Origin: Deltaproteobacteria bacterium
GTDB taxonomy: Bacteria > Desulfobacterota > Binatia > UBA9968
NCBI GenBank assembly: GCA_009692615.1
Contig: SHYW01000006.1
Coordinates: 1 to 64,000, forward strand
DNA length: 64,000 bases
Direction of reading: 5' to 3'
Both the position numbers and the translations under genes were made by a program. Numbering within the stretch: position 1 is the stretch's first letter; every line of letters starts with the position of its first letter. Below the pieces are notes generated by a model, which saw only the letters and a list, made by a program, of their open reading frames with translations, was not told the origin of the DNA and made no database searches. This document shows, piece after piece, positions 2,438 to 63,280 of this stretch.

Positions 2438-3409
2438 CTAACTTAAAGAAAATTTCGTGCCGACACCATTCGCCACCGCCCACCGGTAAGCCCACGCCGC
2501 CGCCACCGTGTCCCAGATCGGCATGCCGATGGATTCGAAGACAACGGTTTCGTTTTCACTGACACGCGCGGGAGTTTTACCGACGATCACGTCGCCCAAC
2601 TCGCCGGCGATCTTTTCCGCCGACCAACTGCCGTCGGCGATCATTGACATATAAGGCTGGCGCGGTGCCTCGCCGCCGAGCAATTCTTCTTTCCACGAAA
2701 CGATCACACGGGAATTCGCCACCGTCTCACGCGGCAATTGGCCGCTGGTAATTGAAATGACTAAAGCGCCCGGCTGAATCCACTGCGGATCAATCACCTG
2801 TGATCGTGAACTTGTCGCCAAACTGACAATCGGCATGTTTTCCACCGCGGCCCGCGCACTGCCCGCCGCTTCGACTTCAATGCCGAGCCACGAACTCATC
2901 TCGCGCGCGAACGACTCACGATGTTCTTTGGTCGAACTGAATATTTTGACTCGTTTCAATGATGGAACCGCACGGGCGATCGCCACCAACTGGCCGCGCG
3001 CTTGCCGGCCGCTGCCGAGGAGGCCCAAGCGATCGGCGCCCTTGGGCGCTAAATATTTGCCCGCCACCCCGCCCGGCGCGCCGGTGCGCCAGATGTTTAA
3101 ATTTTTCCCCGCCACCAGCGCCAGCAAATCGCCGCGCTCGCCGTCGAAGAGCAAGATAAAATACGAATCCTTCGCGCCGCGAAACAGCGCGCTGACGCGC
3201 ATCCCCTGCCCTGCCCCTGGCACGGCGGAAGTCATGATGCGATATTTTTTCTTGCCGTCGAGCAAACTGGTTTCGACGCGGGCTAGACCGGCGTTGGCGC
3301 CGCTACTTTGCGCCCGCAGCGAATCCTCGATCAGCGGCAACAAGTCATCCATGCGCGCTGGCGCGCCATAGAGCGGCGCCAAGTCTTTTTCACTCAAGAT
3401 GATTGGCAT
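2438..3409 (-). CDS. Ornithine cyclodeaminase / mu-crystallin family protein
   Basis: 323 residues, the normal length for this NAD(P)-dependent family (ornithine cyclodeaminase, alanine dehydrogenase, ketimine reductase). The Rossmann motif GLLGSGRQARG is at residues 129-139, and the substrate-side segment with Arg-Thr-Gly-Ala (WRTGAPGGVA) at about 107-116. The start has a clear AGGAGAAG ribosome site just upstream. It is convergent with the UbiD gene and 294 bases from the divergent binding-protein gene at 3704. Members act on amino acids or cyclic imines; which reaction applies here cannot be told from sequence. Confidence 0.88.
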   Translation of the reverse strand: MPIILSEKDLAPLYGAPARMDDLLPLIEDSLRAQSSGANAGLARVETSLLDGKKKYRIMTSAVPGAGQGMRVSALFRGAKDSYFILLFDGERGDLLALVAGKNLNIWRTGAPGGVAGKYLAPKGADRLGLLGSGRQARGQLVAIARAVPSLKRVKIFSSTKEHRESFAREMSSWLGIEVEAAGSARAAVENMPIVSLATSSRSQVIDPQWIQPGALVISITSGQLPRETVANSRVIVSWKEELLGGEAPRQPYMSMIADGSWSAEKIAGELGDVIVGKTPARVSENETVVFESIGMPIWDTVAAAWAYRWAVANGVGTKFSLS

Positions 3410-3529
3410 TCTCTTCTCCTAGCGTTCTCTTACTTCTCGCATACAATTAACGGGTGCCGAAGAACTCGCTGACTGGTCGAAGTCAGTCTCGTCTCAGCAA
3501 ACTGTATTTCATCCATGCCGTCGGTGCAG

Positions 3530-3622
3530 AAATCCCCCTTAGTCCCCCTTTTTCAAAGGGGGAAAGAACTACCGGCGCTGATTGAAAGTCTCCCTTTGTA
3601 AAGGGAGATTTAGAGGGATTTT
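3530..3622. repeat. Intergenic palindromic repeat, CCCCCTTTTTCAAAGGGGG type, copy 1
   Basis: Two adjacent hairpins: CCCCCTTTTTCAAAGGGGG, then CTCCCTTTGTAAAGGGAG, flanked by AAATCCCCCTTAG and TTAGAGGGATTT, so the whole block is also an inverted repeat. The same design recurs at 4769-4860 and 8841-8929. The rest of the 294-base gap (3410-3703) shows no gene. Confidence 0.85.
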
Positions 3623-3703
3623 GGTTTCGCGCCACGGGACTTTAACGCGACGTTATTGTAGTGTCAGATTGTAAACAAGATTGCCTGCGTAAAAGGAGCC
3701 GCC

Positions 3704-4747
3704 ATGAGCACTCTCGACCAACCGCTTCTCATCGCCAACAGCAACTACCACGTCGGTCATCAGGTCGCCATCGCCGTCGCCAAAGAGCAAAACTATTTCA
3801 CCGAAGAAGGACTGAAAGAATTCGACTACGATTCGCGCGGCTTGATCCCCGGCCCCATCGAAAAAGACGGCTTGGCGATGGCGATCAAAAATCACGGCGT
3901 CGACATCGCGCCCGCCGTCGACGTCGAAGCGGCGATCCACCAGCGCGCCAAGGGCGCCGATGTTTACATCGTCGGCGGCTGGCGCTACACGCCGTTTCTC
4001 AAATGGTACGGCGCCAAGCATGTCACCGACATGAGCAAACTGCGCGGCGGCCGTATCGGCATGCGCGAAAAAGAAGGCTTGGTCGAAGTCTTCATCACCG
4101 ACGCCCTGCGCGCCGCCGGCGTCGAACCGTTTAAAGATGTCACCTGGGTCTACGATCCGGTCTTCGGCTACCGCAACAGCCCAGCGCACATGGAAATGTT
4201 GCGCTCGGGCAAGATCGAAGCGATCACTTCGCAGCCGCCCTTCGCCGATCAATTGGAACGGGAAGGCTATCCGATGATTCTCGATCCCAATAAAATCTTT
4301 CCGCGCCGTCCCGGCAAACTCACCGTCGCCACCGGCCAGATGATCGACAAACGCAGGGACGAATTGACCGCGTATTTTCGCGCCATCATTCGTGCCTTCT
4401 GGTTCATGCGCGATGTCACGCACTTCGAATACCTGCGCGAACTCGAAGCGCGGCTGAGAAAAACCAACACCCACAACGAAGACGAGCGCGGCAACGTGGC
4501 GATCGTCACCTCCCCCGACCGCTGCGACAGCTGGGCGCTGCCCATCGACGGCGCGGTCGCGGCCACGGCGATCGAACGCATCGTCGGCGAGATGGTGAAG
4601 TCCGGCAAGCTCGCCACGCCCATCGCCGTCAAAGAAATTCTCCGCGACGACGCGGTGATCGCCGCTTATCGTGACGTGAGCAGGCGCAATGAATTACAGC
4701 CCGCGTTCAACATCGCCTTAGCGGCGCAGGAGAAGTACGGTTTTTAG
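3704..4747 (+). CDS. NMT1/THI5-like substrate-binding protein without signal peptide
   Basis: 347 residues with the SsuA/THI5 (NMT1-like) periplasmic-binding fold: an N-terminal segment with HQVAIAVAKEQNYFTEEGL, a middle DMSKLRGGRIGMREKEG hinge region, and SGKIEAITSQPPFADQLE in the second lobe. Unlike its neighbours it begins MSTLDQPLLIANSNYH, with no hydrophobic signal sequence; AAGGAG lies directly upstream of the ATG, so the start looks right. It may therefore be cytoplasmic, perhaps an enzyme or sensor using the binding fold (as THI5 itself does), or an upstream signal has been lost. No ABC permease or ATPase gene is near. Confidence 0.82.
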   Translation: MSTLDQPLLIANSNYHVGHQVAIAVAKEQNYFTEEGLKEFDYDSRGLIPGPIEKDGLAMAIKNHGVDIAPAVDVEAAIHQRAKGADVYIVGGWRYTPFLKWYGAKHVTDMSKLRGGRIGMREKEGLVEVFITDALRAAGVEPFKDVTWVYDPVFGYRNSPAHMEMLRSGKIEAITSQPPFADQLEREGYPMILDPNKIFPRRPGKLTVATGQMIDKRRDELTAYFRAIIRAFWFMRDVTHFEYLRELEARLRKTNTHNEDERGNVAIVTSPDRCDSWALPIDGAVAATAIERIVGEMVKSGKLATPIAVKEILRDDAVIAAYRDVSRRNELQPAFNIALAAQEKYGF

Positions 4748-4768
4748 CGAAAATAAATTTGTCCGAAC

Positions 4769-4860
4769 ATCCCCCCTTTGAAAAAGGGGGGAATGAGGGG
4801 GGATTTTCTTCTACGCGCAAAATTCAAATCCCCCTCGGTTCCCCTTTTTCAAAGTGGGAA
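4769..4860. repeat. Intergenic palindromic repeat, CCCCCTTTTTCAAAGGGGG type, copy 2
   Basis: Contains CCCCCCTTTGAAAAAGGGGGG followed by GAGGGGGGATTTT, then AAATCCCCCTCGG and CCCCTTTTTCAAAGTGGG. Same two-hairpin layout as 3530-3622. It occupies the gap between two binding-protein genes. Confidence 0.85.
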
Positions 4861-4915
4861 GCAAGAAAAGTCCTGAACTTGAATTGCGCGCAGCGAGACC
4901 GCGCGGAGAATTGAG

Positions 4916-5914
4916 ATGATGGGTACAACCAGATTCATCGAACGATTTGCAACAAAGACCATGATCACGGCATTGGTATGGGCAGCGTTCAATGTTACTG
5001 ATTTCGCCTTCGCCCTCGACACCGTCAATCTGCATATCTCCGCCGGCATCAGTCCCAACGCGCTGCTTTACCGTTTCACCAAGGAGAAAGGGTTCTACCG
5101 CGAAGAAGGCATCGATCTGTTGATGATCCAAGCCGGCATGCTGCCGGGAATTCAAGGACTGGTTGGCGGCAGCTTTCAGTTCAGTCAAATTCTCGGCCAA
5201 GGCGCCGGTGCGATTCTGCGCGGCCTGCCGTTGAAGATTTTAATGGTCTTCGACACCCGCCCGCTCAACTGGCTTTACGCCGCGAAACACATCAAGACGC
5301 TGCAAGATTTAAAAGGCGGCAAGCAGATCGCGGTGTCGAGCTTCGGCGCGGCGATCGATCAAATGACTCGCGAACTTTTGCCCAAGCATGGCATCGATCC
5401 GCAAAAAGATGTCGTGCTGCGCGCCATCGAGCCGACGCCTAACCGGCTCGCCGCGCTAATGACCGGCGCTGTAGACGCCACGGTGTTCAACCAATCCGAT
5501 CGTTTGATCGCCAAGAAGAACGGCTTCAACGAGCTGCTGTTTTATGGCGACGATCTGGAATTCGTCACCGCCGGCGCTGTCACCGCGGAAAAGACCCTGG
5601 CGCAAAACCCCGACATGGTGCGGCGCTTTCTGCGCGCAACACTGCGCGGCTTCCTGTGGCTCAAAGCGAGTGAAAAAGAGGTGGTGCCGCGCTTCGCCGC
5701 CGCCATGAAGATCACCGACAGCGAAGCCGCCGACGTGTATAAATCTGCGCTCAAAGTCATGTCCAGCGACGGCACCATCCCGCGCAGCCTGCAAGAAAAG
5801 ATGATCGCCTTCCAGCGCCGCGCCCTCAAGATCGAACGCGAAGTCGCTCCCGAGCAAGTCTACGATTTCGCCATGATCCGAGCGCTCAATGACGAACTGC
5901 GGCGACCCAAGTAG
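4916..5914 (+). CDS. NMT1/THI5-like ABC substrate-binding protein
   Basis: 332 residues. The N-terminal positive-then-hydrophobic stretch (TMITALVWAAFNVTDFAFA) fits a signal peptide, giving a periplasmic protein. Mature features are typical of the SsuA/NMT1 family: AGISPNALLYRFTKEKGFYREEGIDL, QDLKGGKQIAVSSFG, and LAALMTGAVDATVFNQ. Such proteins bind nitrate, sulfonate, taurine, pyrimidine or unknown aromatic ligands for ABC import. CGGAG lies about eight bases before the ATG. No transporter partner is adjacent; the next gene is an unrelated cell-wall amidase. Confidence 0.85.
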   Translation: MMGTTRFIERFATKTMITALVWAAFNVTDFAFALDTVNLHISAGISPNALLYRFTKEKGFYREEGIDLLMIQAGMLPGIQGLVGGSFQFSQILGQGAGAILRGLPLKILMVFDTRPLNWLYAAKHIKTLQDLKGGKQIAVSSFGAAIDQMTRELLPKHGIDPQKDVVLRAIEPTPNRLAALMTGAVDATVFNQSDRLIAKKNGFNELLFYGDDLEFVTAGAVTAEKTLAQNPDMVRRFLRATLRGFLWLKASEKEVVPRFAAAMKITDSEAADVYKSALKVMSSDGTIPRSLQEKMIAFQRRALKIEREVAPEQVYDFAMIRALNDELRRPK

Positions 5915-6105
5915 GCCGTCGACCGACCGGTGCGTGCCGCGCACCCGACGGGAATTTATTCTCTGTAATCTCTGTGCCTTCTGTGGTTAATTATCTTCTC
6001 CCAACCGACACCTCTATTTCGCGGTTAAAGGTTGACATGGCACACCATCGTCGATAGCTTTCTTTCGGCTGACGGGGTCCGGTTCTCAGATAAATTTAAA
6101 TCATC

Positions 6106-7125
6106 ATGGCGACGGTCGACGAAACCAAGTCACGGCTTATGCGCGGCGTGGTGCAGGCCAACATGGAGGTCCTGCAAGGCGTCAAGCTACGCCGAATTGA
6201 CCGGCGCCGCCGTTTCGTCCTGCCCTGGCTTTTCGCTAGTTTGGCGTTGGCCAGTGGAACCTATTTCATCCGGCCGGGCGCTTGGGACGCGGCCCACCGC
6301 GCGGCGAGCGCCAACAGCGATCACGCCCTGACGAATCCAATGACTGCGCCCATCCCGGCGCTGAACATCGACCAGACGCCGGAGTCGGCAGCTTCCCTCG
6401 ACAATCCGCGCCCCATCGACCGCGGCGCGATTCCGCTATCGGTGCGAAGAATCGTTATCGATCCCGGTCACGGCGGCGAGCCCGGCGCGTTGTCGGAATC
6501 CGGCGTGACGGAAAAAGAGATTACTTTGGATATCGCTCTTCGTTTGCGCCGGCTGATGGCGCAGGAGCCGTTTGAAGTGTTCTTAACCCGCCAAACCGAC
6601 CGTCTCGTGCCCCTCGACAAACGGGTCGCCTTCGCCAACGAAAACAAAGCCGACCTGTTCGTGTCGATTCACGTCAACTGGATGGAGCCGCGCACCATTC
6701 GCGCCTTGGAAACCTATTATGTCGGCCCCAGCGACGATCCCGCCACGCTCAAACTCGCCGGGCGGGAGAATAAAGATTCCGGCTATTCCTTGTCGGACTA
6801 TAAAAAAATTCTCGAAAAGATTTACGTCGACGCGCGCCACGACGAATCGCGAGTGCTGGCCAAAACCATTCAAACCCAGCTCTATCACACGCTCAAGCCG
6901 GCCAATCCGGCGGTGGAAAATCGCGGCGTCAAAAGCGCACCCTTCGTGGTTTTGATCGGCACCCAGATGCCGGCGATCCTGGCGGAGATCGCCTGTCTTT
7001 CGAACGACGATGAAGCGCTGTTATTGACAAAAGAGGCGTATCGCGAAAATATCGCGTTGGCATTGTTTCAAGGGATTCGTGCCTACGCGCGCAACCTCAA
7101 CGGCCCCGGCAAGAAAGGTAATTGA
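6106..7125 (+). CDS. N-acetylmuramoyl-L-alanine amidase (Amidase_3) with N-terminal membrane anchor
   Basis: 339 residues. An N-terminal cytoplasmic part is followed by one membrane segment at about 37-56 (VLPWLFASLALASGTYF), a linker, and a zinc amidase domain from about residue 113. The ligands and catalytic residues are visible: His122 in DPGHGG, Glu138 in EKEITLDI, His189 in VSIHVN and Glu294 in ILAEIACLSN. The enzyme cleaves the amide bond between MurNAc and L-Ala in peptidoglycan, with the catalytic domain in the periplasm. Its stop is three bases from the start of the half-length MamK-like actin gene, so the two are almost certainly co-transcribed. That pairing hints at a cytoskeleton-to-cell-wall link. 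Confidence 0.92.
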   Translation: MATVDETKSRLMRGVVQANMEVLQGVKLRRIDRRRRFVLPWLFASLALASGTYFIRPGAWDAAHRAASANSDHALTNPMTAPIPALNIDQTPESAASLDNPRPIDRGAIPLSVRRIVIDPGHGGEPGALSESGVTEKEITLDIALRLRRLMAQEPFEVFLTRQTDRLVPLDKRVAFANENKADLFVSIHVNWMEPRTIRALETYYVGPSDDPATLKLAGRENKDSGYSLSDYKKILEKIYVDARHDESRVLAKTIQTQLYHTLKPANPAVENRGVKSAPFVVLIGTQMPAILAEIACLSNDDEALLLTKEAYRENIALALFQGIRAYARNLNGPGKKGN

Positions 7126-10816: not shown

Positions 10817-12181
10817 TTACTTATTTTGTCCGTTGAGCGGTTTAAAACCCGGCGCGATCTTCCAGCCGGGATTATCCGACTGGCCTTTCGCTTCGTAGGC
10901 GCCGATATCTACTTTTGCCGCAGCCCGCGGTCGGCCATTGAAATCGTCGCGCGGCGCAAACTTTACATCGCCGGCACCGAGTAGCGCCGAATTGGCCCGC
11001 GGCCACAGATCGAATGAATCGGAACTTTTGAATGTATTCCCGGCGCGGCCGCCGCCGCGAAACTTTTGGCCATCGAGGTGCACACCGACGAGCGTACCTT
11101 CGACAACATTGGCCCGCACCGTGACGCCAGAGCCGTTCAAGCCGAGAGCGTCAACCGACACACCGCCGGCGCAGTAAAAAGCGTTGTTCGCCAGCACCAT
11201 GTTTTCCGCGCCTTCCCAGCGTAGGTCGAGACACTTGGGATGACCGACCACGGTATTACTGACGATGGTCACGTTGCGCACCCGGCGATTGGCGGTTTGC
11301 GGCGCGGCGGTGATGCCGGTGAGCGAGGAATTGAGAATCAGATTGTTTTGCACCAGCGCGTCGGCGACCACTTGAATGCCCTAGCCGCAATTCCACATAA
11401 CGTTGCGTTCGATAATATTGATGCCGGCGCCGCCGCCGTAAACGAAAATACAAGGATACTGGGTGCCGATGTTGGTGTCGTGAATAACGTTGTCACGCAC
11501 CACGTTGCCAAACGATCCGAGTTTGATTTCGATGCCGTCGTTGCCGCCTTCGCTGGTGCCGCGCAGATGGTGAATATAGTTGCCCTCGATTAGGCTATTG
11601 GTCACCCTGCATTTGCCATCGTGGCAGCCGATATACATGCCTTCGCCCTCGGTTGGTACGGTCGGGTGAAGCCCGGTGTGATGAATATGGTTGCGCCGCA
11701 CCACCAACGCGTCGACATCGCCGGCGTTGACCGCCAGCGCGTTGTTCTGGGTTTCCTCGATCTCGTTGTCTTCCAAGGTAATGTGATGGCCGCGAATGAT
11801 CCGAAAGCCGATGCTGCCGCCGCGAAAGTGCAAACCGCGAATCGTCAGATAAGCCGAGTCGACGATTTCAATATTGTTTTGCGTCGTGTTGCTCTGCGCC
11901 GGCCGAGTGATCAGCGGCCGCGCGCCGGGCGCCGCGCGAATCATGATCGGCTTATCGGCTTCACCTTTCGCTGTGATCGCGCGCCGGCAGGCTTGGGAAT
12001 AAACCCCGTCGTGCAAAATCAGCTCGTCGCCCGGTTTCAACTTATTGGCGAGGTTTTCGAATTCTTCGTCGCAGGAGTCAGAATTGGGCGGATAGATCTC
12101 GAAAGTCTCGCCGTTAACATCGCCACGAAACATGCAAAGCCAAAGGGCCAGCATCAAAAAAGCACAGCAACTTGTATTCAT
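10817..12181 (-). pseudogene. Right-handed beta-helix protein interrupted by an in-frame TAG
   Basis: One reading frame from the ATG at 12181 to 10817 (455 codons) is broken only by a TAG at 11381-11383 (minus strand), between ERNVMWNCG and GIQVVADALVQNN. Both halves are open and share the beta-helix style: alternating short strands rich in Asn and Gly (LEDNEIEETQNNALAVNAG, RRNHIHHTGLH, IEGNYIHHLRG, VRDNVIHD before the stop; VSNTVVGH and VLANNAFYCAGGV after). A signal peptide starts at MNTSCCAFLMLALWLCMF. Family members are secreted polysaccharide-binding or lyase-like proteins. The simplest cause is a point mutation of a Glu or Gln codon; no recoding is implied. Confidence 0.85.
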
Positions 12182-62086: not shown

Positions 62087-63280
62087 TCATCCAATGCGCC
62101 GCGCCAGTTCTTGAATCTGATCCATGGTCTCTTTCAACCCCGGCGCATATTGGCGCGGCACGCACTCGCCGCAGATTTCGTTGGCCAGCTGGCTGATCGA
62201 GCGCAGAGCGGAATCGAGCATGGCCGAGCGCGTGTCAGGCAAGGCCGCGCCCACTTCAACCAACGCCTGCAAGCAAATGATCAGATTGGAGAGCAGCGAC
62301 TCCATCATCTCTTCATCCGGCATCACCTGGCAACGATAGAGCAGATCGTGCACCGCCTGTAACTCGCCGCGAAACATTCGCACGGTGCTTTCCAAGCGAC
62401 GCAAAACCAAATCCGGTAACACGCCCTGCTCGGCTTGTAGTTGCTGCACCACGCCGAGATCGGAGAAGACCAAATGTAAATTGGTACGCACGCGGTTCAA
62501 GCGGTCTTCGAAAGTCGTGCGGTGAATCTGCTCGGTCAGCTCCTCTTGGCGGCGGGAAACCAATTTGGAAATGACGCAGCCGAAAATCAGCAAGCCTGCG
62601 GCGCCTTCGACGATCGCGAAGATGCGCAGCGCGCCGGTGGGAATCACATCGCCATAACCGATCGACAACGCCGTGACGAAACTGAAATACATCGCCGTGC
62701 CGAGACCATTGAGATCCGGTTTGACCGCAACGTTGCCAGCTTGAAGTCTCCAGCCCATGCCGATGCCGGCAAGCCAGTAAATCAAACCGAATACCATGAT
62801 CATGCCGAGCCAGATACCGACGAGAGTCTCAAGCGACAAGTTGGCGACGACTTCCAACCACGAGAGCCGACGCGAGACTAACGGTGACGCGACCGAGCCG
62901 ATGGGAGTCGACACCGGCAGCACATCCTGTTCCACCTCAGCGCCACTCTCGGTCCAATCCGCCATGCCGCCAACGTAATAACGCAAGTGGGTGTAACCCT
63001 TTTTTTCGAGCAAGCTCACGGCTTGCTTGCCCAACGGTCAGGTCGGACCGGCGCAATGAATCGCAACCTCCAGCGCCAAATTGGAAAGCAGCCGCGGCGC
63101 TTTAAGCTCGATGTCGGCAAGCGGCAGATTGATGGAACCGGGAATATGGCCGGCTCTGAACGAATCCACCGGCATGACATTGACCAGCGCCAAGGCGCGA
63201 TCCTGCAAGCGCGCAAGTATTTCCTCGCGCGAGATCGTCGAATACTCGTGAATCGGTTCTTGAATTTGCGGCTTCGCCAT
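62087..63280 (-). CDS. Rhodanese-potassium channel fusion, candidate selenoprotein (in-frame TGA)
   Basis: A 397-residue product if the TGA at 63038-63040 (minus strand) is read as an amino acid. Residues 1-110 are a rhodanese domain: LARLQDRALALVNVMPVDSF, GHIPGSINLPLADIEL, then the active loop IHCAGPT-TGA-PLGKQAVSLLEKKGYTHLRYY and GGMADW. The Cys after the strand is kept; the TGA falls on the second Cys of the C-x4-C loop common in this subgroup. Then two membrane helices around a pore (helix near 150; TALSIGYGDVIP filter; helix AIVEGAAGLLIFGCVIS) and a helical cytoplasmic domain of about 180 residues. Everything after the TGA keeps the same frame with no other defect. A hairpin suited to Sec insertion follows. 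The alternative is a TGC/TGT/TGG-to-TGA mutation or base error. Confidence 0.75.
63009..63040 (-). promoter_or_regulatory. SECIS-like hairpin downstream of the in-frame TGA
   Basis: On the coding strand the TGA (63040-63038) is followed, after ten bases, by AGCAAGC (63027-63021), loop CGTGA (63020-63016) and GCTTGCT (63015-63009): seven perfect pairs with a five-base loop beginning 17 bases after the TGA and carrying G at loop position 2. Bacterial SECIS elements sit at about this distance with a G in the first two loop positions. A second register, GGGCAAGC with GCTTGCTC, competes and is equally long. Confidence 0.5.

Follow-up and report, generated by a model that had tools for sequence, protein, structure and literature searches.

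Organization of the gene

The gene described here, from an uncultured bacterium of soil type, lies on the reverse strand of the window, i.e. the whole 64,000-nt stretch of DNA that was analysed. The frame from 63280 to 62087 is open over 397 residues except for a single internal TGA at codon 81 (63040-63038). The original prediction had placed this one interruption inside the active loop of a rhodanese domain; indeed, the loop reads CAGPT[TGA]PLG, which gives C76-A-G-P-T-U81 with the TGA read as selenocysteine (Sec). Ordinary ORF calling cuts the gene into an 80-aa and a 315-aa ORF, and because annotation splits it at the UGA in this way it is easily missed. The features of the gene are listed in Table 1.

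Table 1 Features of the rhodanese-channel gene and its predicted product
Feature	Position	Strand	Remarks
Whole predicted selenoprotein gene	62087..63280	(-)	ATG 63280, UGA(Sec) codon 81, stop TGA 62089-62087; 397 residues
N-terminal rhodanese domain, residues 18-111	62948..63229	(-)	Pfam PF00581, 46.2 bits, cut-off 22.2
Cys76, first active-loop residue (catalytic-Cys position of rhodaneses)	63053..63055	(-)	C in 24/24 covering orthologues
In-frame TGA, predicted selenocysteine codon 81, sixth active-loop residue	63038..63040	(-)	TGA in 25/25 orthologues; Cys in ArsR-rhodanese paralogues
Predicted bacterial SECIS hairpin	63009..63027	(-)	7-bp stem, 5-nt loop CGUGA (63020-63016), loop G invariant, 17 nt after UGA
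First membrane helix M1, residues 150-174; short helix 141-146 before	62759..62833	(-)	AF2 model
Pore helix and selectivity filter S-I-G-Y-G-D	62648..62713	(-)	Filter 62665-62648 = residues 206-211; KcsA, KirBac/Kir pore similarity
Second membrane helix M2, about residues 218-243, running on into long cytoplasmic helix	62552..62629	(-)	
C-terminal all-helical cytoplasmic domain, residues about 245-397	62090..62548	(-)	
Conserved C-x2-C, Cys370 and Cys373 (I-C-G-E-C-V-P), near C-terminus	62162..62173	(-)	23/23 complete orthologues

The Pfam match over the cut-off and the active-loop Cys76 assign the N-terminal domain to the rhodanese superfamily, and the rhodanese part of the AF2 model resembles experimentally solved rhodanese structures (e.g. 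6mxv, E 1.1e-6). Ion_trans_2 (PF07885) is found at residues 161-242 with 48.3 bits (cut-off 22.5), which together with the GYG filter points to a two-helix K+ channel, as had been claimed from the intact SIGYGD motif. Within the filter (S206-D211) G208, G210 and D211 are invariant among the orthologues, and a GFGD variant occurs in L007 and L071. The C-terminal helical domain belongs to no Pfam family and matches no PDB entry with confidence, and Pfam reveals neither an RCK nor a Kir cytoplasmic domain in the protein. The individual domains are good in the AF2 monomer (pLDDT 84.9), but its pTM of 0.46 gives no reliable placement of the rhodanese relative to the pore. In the two-helix channel fold both termini are cytoplasmic, so that the rhodanese domain and the helical tail are expected inside the cell beside the gate.

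Conservation of the in-frame TGA

A search of GTDB contigs and whole genomes yielded 25 distinct orthologues of the full fusion with the same architecture, 19 of them in the class of the host (from 148 genomes) and six, reached via L007, in a second group that is listed under Acidobacteria. They are 41-80% identical to the window protein (19-row alignment). All of them carry TGA at exactly codon 81, and none of the 25 has Cys, TAA or TAG there. Likewise, 1,633 (overlapping) genome searches and one GTDB contig scan, which bound the sensitivity for distant Cys-form fusions, revealed no full-length fusion with Cys in this position.

For most pairs of orthologues dS is about 0.5-2.9, and dN/dS is mostly about 0.1-0.3 both before and after the TGA, which indicates purifying selection on both sides of this codon. 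Since the TGA was kept in 25 of 25 orthologues across such synonymous distances, its conservation is far beyond chance. A conserved in-frame UGA flanked by coding selection on either side is what characterizes a bacterial selenoprotein gene. Furthermore, the same TGA occurs in many separate assemblies, so that a read-level check of the codon is hardly necessary. A nonsense change, named as the main rival in the original prediction, is excluded by the 25 conserved TGAs. Elsewhere in the window, a TAG at 11383 (-) divides another frame into 297 and 187 codons; the codon usage of this frame is good, and it is likely a broken gene, which is in line with the earlier remark on TAG and TAA interruptions of other genes.

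The hairpin downstream of the TGA

Bacterial SECIS elements are described as stems of 4-16 bp with a loop of 3-9 nt, and a distance of 16-37 nt between UGA and loop; a G is required at one of the first two bases of the loop, and the base after it is usually G or U (PMC13188914). The hairpin of the window agrees with this description in its 7-bp stem, its loop of 5 nt and its distance of 17 nt from the UGA to the loop; the seven perfect pairs, the CGUGA loop and the SECIS spacing had been predicted, and the comparison of orthologues revealed conservation with covariation as well. All 25 sequences have G as the second base of the loop, followed by U or G. The register of the hairpin (at least 4 consecutive pairs) is kept in 24 of 25 sequences; in the exception, L012, a shifted 5-bp stem with the loop GGA is possible, as read from the sequence.

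Synonymous identity at the stem third positions reaches 0.95, 0.90, 0.85 and 0.90 (codons 4, 5, 8 and 9 after the UGA) and is 0.41, 0.53 and 0.31 at codons 6, 7 and 10, which lie in the loop or outside the hairpin. The gene mean elsewhere is 0.44 for 4-fold and 0.57 for 2-fold sites. By this measure the third positions of the stem are frozen and those of the loop free. In the 25-sequence alignment 92% of the stem cells are paired, compared to 26-44% when the stem is slid. Covariation over the 7-bp stem of the 25 sequences was 0.159 vs. 0.125 ± 0.007 in shuffled alignments, a value reached by 1 of 500 shuffles, and two double changes (C-G to A-U, G-C to A-U) are found in the stem. With an eighth pair included (19 sequences) covariation was not above that of the shuffles. 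Ten Cys-form rhodaneses from related genomes form on average 3.1 of 8 pairs in register vs. 6.6 of 8 in the Sec forms, and the SECIS hairpin is thus absent from the Cys paralogues. The motif Q-A-V-x-L-L is present in the Sec forms and absent from the Cys forms, which suggests that the SECIS element shapes the protein.

Taken by itself, the fold of the window sequence is only mildly unusual (z = -1.68), with a mildly low energy compared to shuffles or synonymous recoding; the SECIS assignment therefore rests on the comparative evidence. The single sequence also allows an overlapping alternative with a 9-nt loop (GCAAGCAAGC is a partial repeat). The Rfam model SECIS_1 was rejected as a detector, as it gave no match in any control genome.

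Selenocysteine machinery in the host and in other carriers

The host genome (G000, 98.7% complete) contains a cluster of selD (1609-2535), selB (2873-4756) and selA (4831-6162) on contig C70 and a tRNA-Sec at C142:8045-8135 (74.9 bits). The complete set of selA, selB, selC and selD, which the original prediction had proposed to look for, is thus encoded by the host, as expected for a bacterial selenoprotein. The host SelD (L102, on C70) itself carries an in-frame TGA (E-V-K-A-A-G-U-A-A-K-L), which we take to be the usual Sec site of SelD. With a TGA at this site, UGA is very probably read as Sec at other places in the host genome as well. The Sec motif of SelD is given as UxxK (PMC13188914).

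A strong selA match was obtained in 24 of the 25 carriers of the fusion gene. In G002 (L005/L079), a 670-contig MAG that carries the TGA gene, selA and tRNA-Sec were not detected, probably because of missing contigs. As 165 of 193 genomes of the host's class have a selA match, co-occurrence with the Sec machinery says little on its own. On the conservation of the TGA, the hairpin and the machinery taken together, codon 81 is almost certainly a selenocysteine codon.

Comparison with known selenoproteins and channels

A 2026 inventory lists 119 prokaryotic selenoprotein families, among them five rhodanese forms (UxxS, UxxG twice, CxU and UxxxxU), and includes several transporters and neither the term 'channel' nor 'potassium' (PMC13188914). 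The deep-Sep paper mentions neither rhodanese nor channel. No NCBIfam 2026 model was over its cut-off for the window protein, and the literature searched contained neither a fusion of a rhodanese with a potassium channel nor a selenoprotein that is a channel. To our knowledge selenocysteine is restricted almost entirely to redox enzymes and a few transporters, and we know of no Sec-containing ion channel outside bacteria either. The channel-rhodanese fusions seem to form a selenoprotein family that has not been described before and, within the sources checked, would be the first ion channels whose own polypeptide contains selenocysteine. Such a protein would extend the use of selenocysteine to ion flux and signalling. 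The position of the Sec would also be new, because a sixth loop residue paired with a Cys at the catalytic position (C-x4-U) is absent from the 119-family inventory.

Among known selenoproteins the rhodanese part is best matched by TsoB (NF045694; 'rhodanese form 5', UxxxxU), with 21.8 bits compared to a cut-off of 805. In both proteins a Sec ends the six-residue rhodanese loop and a membrane part is joined to it, and Sec81 appears to relate in position to the second Sec of TsoB. However, TsoB has two Sec residues (U-x4-U) and a DsbD-like part, whereas the window protein combines C-x4-U with a K+ channel; membership of TsoB was rejected because the score is far below the cut-off and comes from the rhodanese part only, a single Sec is present and a DsbD domain is missing. 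Forms 1-4 are likewise bacterial and rhodanese-like, but their Sec motifs are UxxS, UxxG or CxU and no channel is listed for them (PMC13188914). The CxU model rhodanese_LYCAU (NF041203, cut-off 115) was rejected as well, with no match at E ≤ 1 and a different motif.

The pore shares the M1-pore-M2 arrangement and the T/S-x-G-Y-G-D filter with KcsA, KirBac/Kir and KvLm, whereas the N-terminal Sec rhodanese and the helical C-x2-C tail are additions of the window protein. KefB and KefC, the glutathione-gated K+ efflux systems, resemble it in working logic only, as thiol or electrophile chemistry would control K+ flux (PMC10224563); their architecture is unrelated, and no antiporter or nucleotide-binding domain was detected in the window protein.

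The rhodanese domain is of the C-x-G-P-x-C kind. Related proteins had been expected to carry a second Cys at the TGA position, and ArsR-family regulators of the same class do so: their C-terminal rhodanese has the loop C-R-G-P-Y-C, with the second Cys aligned with Sec81, and Cys homologues thus exist within the domain family. These ArsR/SmtB regulators share the rhodanese subtype and a sensor-like fusion with the channel protein, but they contain Cys in place of Sec, lack the SECIS hairpin and have a DNA-binding domain as output. In plasmid records no full-length homologue was present; there were only partial matches, and among the matches listed most of the annotated ones are ArsR/SmtB regulators. 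A tree of rhodanese domains groups most channel rhodaneses together; it is compatible with more than one origin of these domains and cannot settle a single one.

A possible function of the fusion protein

We consider a single-gene redox- or sulfane-sulfur-sensing Sec-rhodanese K+ channel the best explanation of the gene, with a probability of roughly 0.6. In this reading a cytoplasmic rhodanese domain precedes a K+ channel of the two-helix, tetrameric type, whose tail is helical and cytoplasmic as well. On the comparative evidence UGA codon 81 is almost certainly decoded as selenocysteine through the hairpin directly after it, so that the channel would be made only with selenium and the Sec machinery available. 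Cys76, at the nucleophile position, and Sec81 may form a reversible selenenylsulfide or (per)sulfide, cycling with the selenol/thiol state, and the pair may in this way respond to cytoplasmic oxidants, electrophiles or sulfane sulfur. The state of the rhodanese domain, which adjoins the helix leading into M1, could open or close the K+ pore, and the C-terminal C-x2-C (C370/C373) may act as a partner that resolves or relays the oxidation. The scheme would follow a KefB/C-like logic, from thiol chemistry to K+ flux, with other parts. The chances that the Cys76/Sec81 sensor has a gating role are evenly divided. The odds are likewise about even for the wider statement that these proteins are a family of K+ channels that depend on selenium and are gated by redox state or sulfane sulfur, with the C-x4-U loop as gate sensor, occurring in at least two deep bacterial groups and representing the first known Sec-bearing channel. 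The fusion offers a simple test system, with one gene, one Sec and a measurable current.

The Cys-bearing relatives are ArsR-type regulators, so that this type of rhodanese is already found in sensor-like fusions, and by analogy this would favour sensing over catalysis. The same fusions, to a DNA-binding regulator on the one hand and to a pore on the other, suit a sensor better than an enzyme or scaffold at the membrane, a role that is distinctly less probable than sensing and nevertheless has to be taken seriously. The Sec rhodanese would then transfer sulfur or selenium or reduce peroxides there, and the fusion would bring it to the membrane or couple it indirectly to ion flux, not gate the pore. 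The active-site Cys is retained, most known Sec residues are catalytic (PMC13188914) and in TsoB a rhodanese is linked with a membrane part of the DsbD-like kind, but the window protein has no DsbD-like electron-transfer domain. The sensing channel is itself weakened by L072:1459-2364 (+) from G307, where the same channel and C-terminal C-x2-C domain occur without any rhodanese, which indicates that the pore can exist without the sensor; only selA fragments were found in this genome. Crude ORF calls gave no conserved operon partner and no sulfur or redox gene beside the channel gene outside the genus, and the gene context thus points to no particular physiological signal.

The remaining explanations concern the UGA itself. 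It might be a selenium-supply switch, with the channel produced only in selenium-replete cells and the chemistry of the residue secondary; the Sec precedes the entire pore in the chain, and termination at the UGA would therefore abolish the channel. This is improbable, because a mere switch needs neither a position in the active loop, where relatives have Cys, nor an invariant partner Cys. More improbable still is a true stop, which would mean that two adjacent genes are maintained, one for the 80-aa piece and one for a 315-aa channel. A TTG start is present two codons past the TGA, but the 80-aa piece would end inside the active loop without part of the rhodanese fold, and the next 30 residues complete this fold and are under selection. 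The unbroken frame in 25 of 25 orthologues and the constraint on the SECIS stem also speak against a stop. A nonsense mutation, pseudogene or sequencing error could be supported by the other TAG-broken frame of the window, as judged by its codon usage, but is refuted, because 25 orthologues in many assemblies share the TGA and are under purifying selection.

Other rhodaneses with a putative C-x4-U loop

An NCBIfam model over its cut-off was not obtained for the L074 protein. It and the L075 protein (both around the match at 1501) are stand-alone rhodaneses of ~120 aa with the loops C-A-S-P-T-U and C-A-G-P-T-U, respectively, from genomes with selA. A further candidate C-x4-U selenoprotein, L028:1126-2505 (+), is an apparently exported triple-rhodanese protein with an in-frame TGA in C-E-G-P-R-U. 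These three loci suggest that C-x4-U may be a wider Sec motif among rhodaneses.
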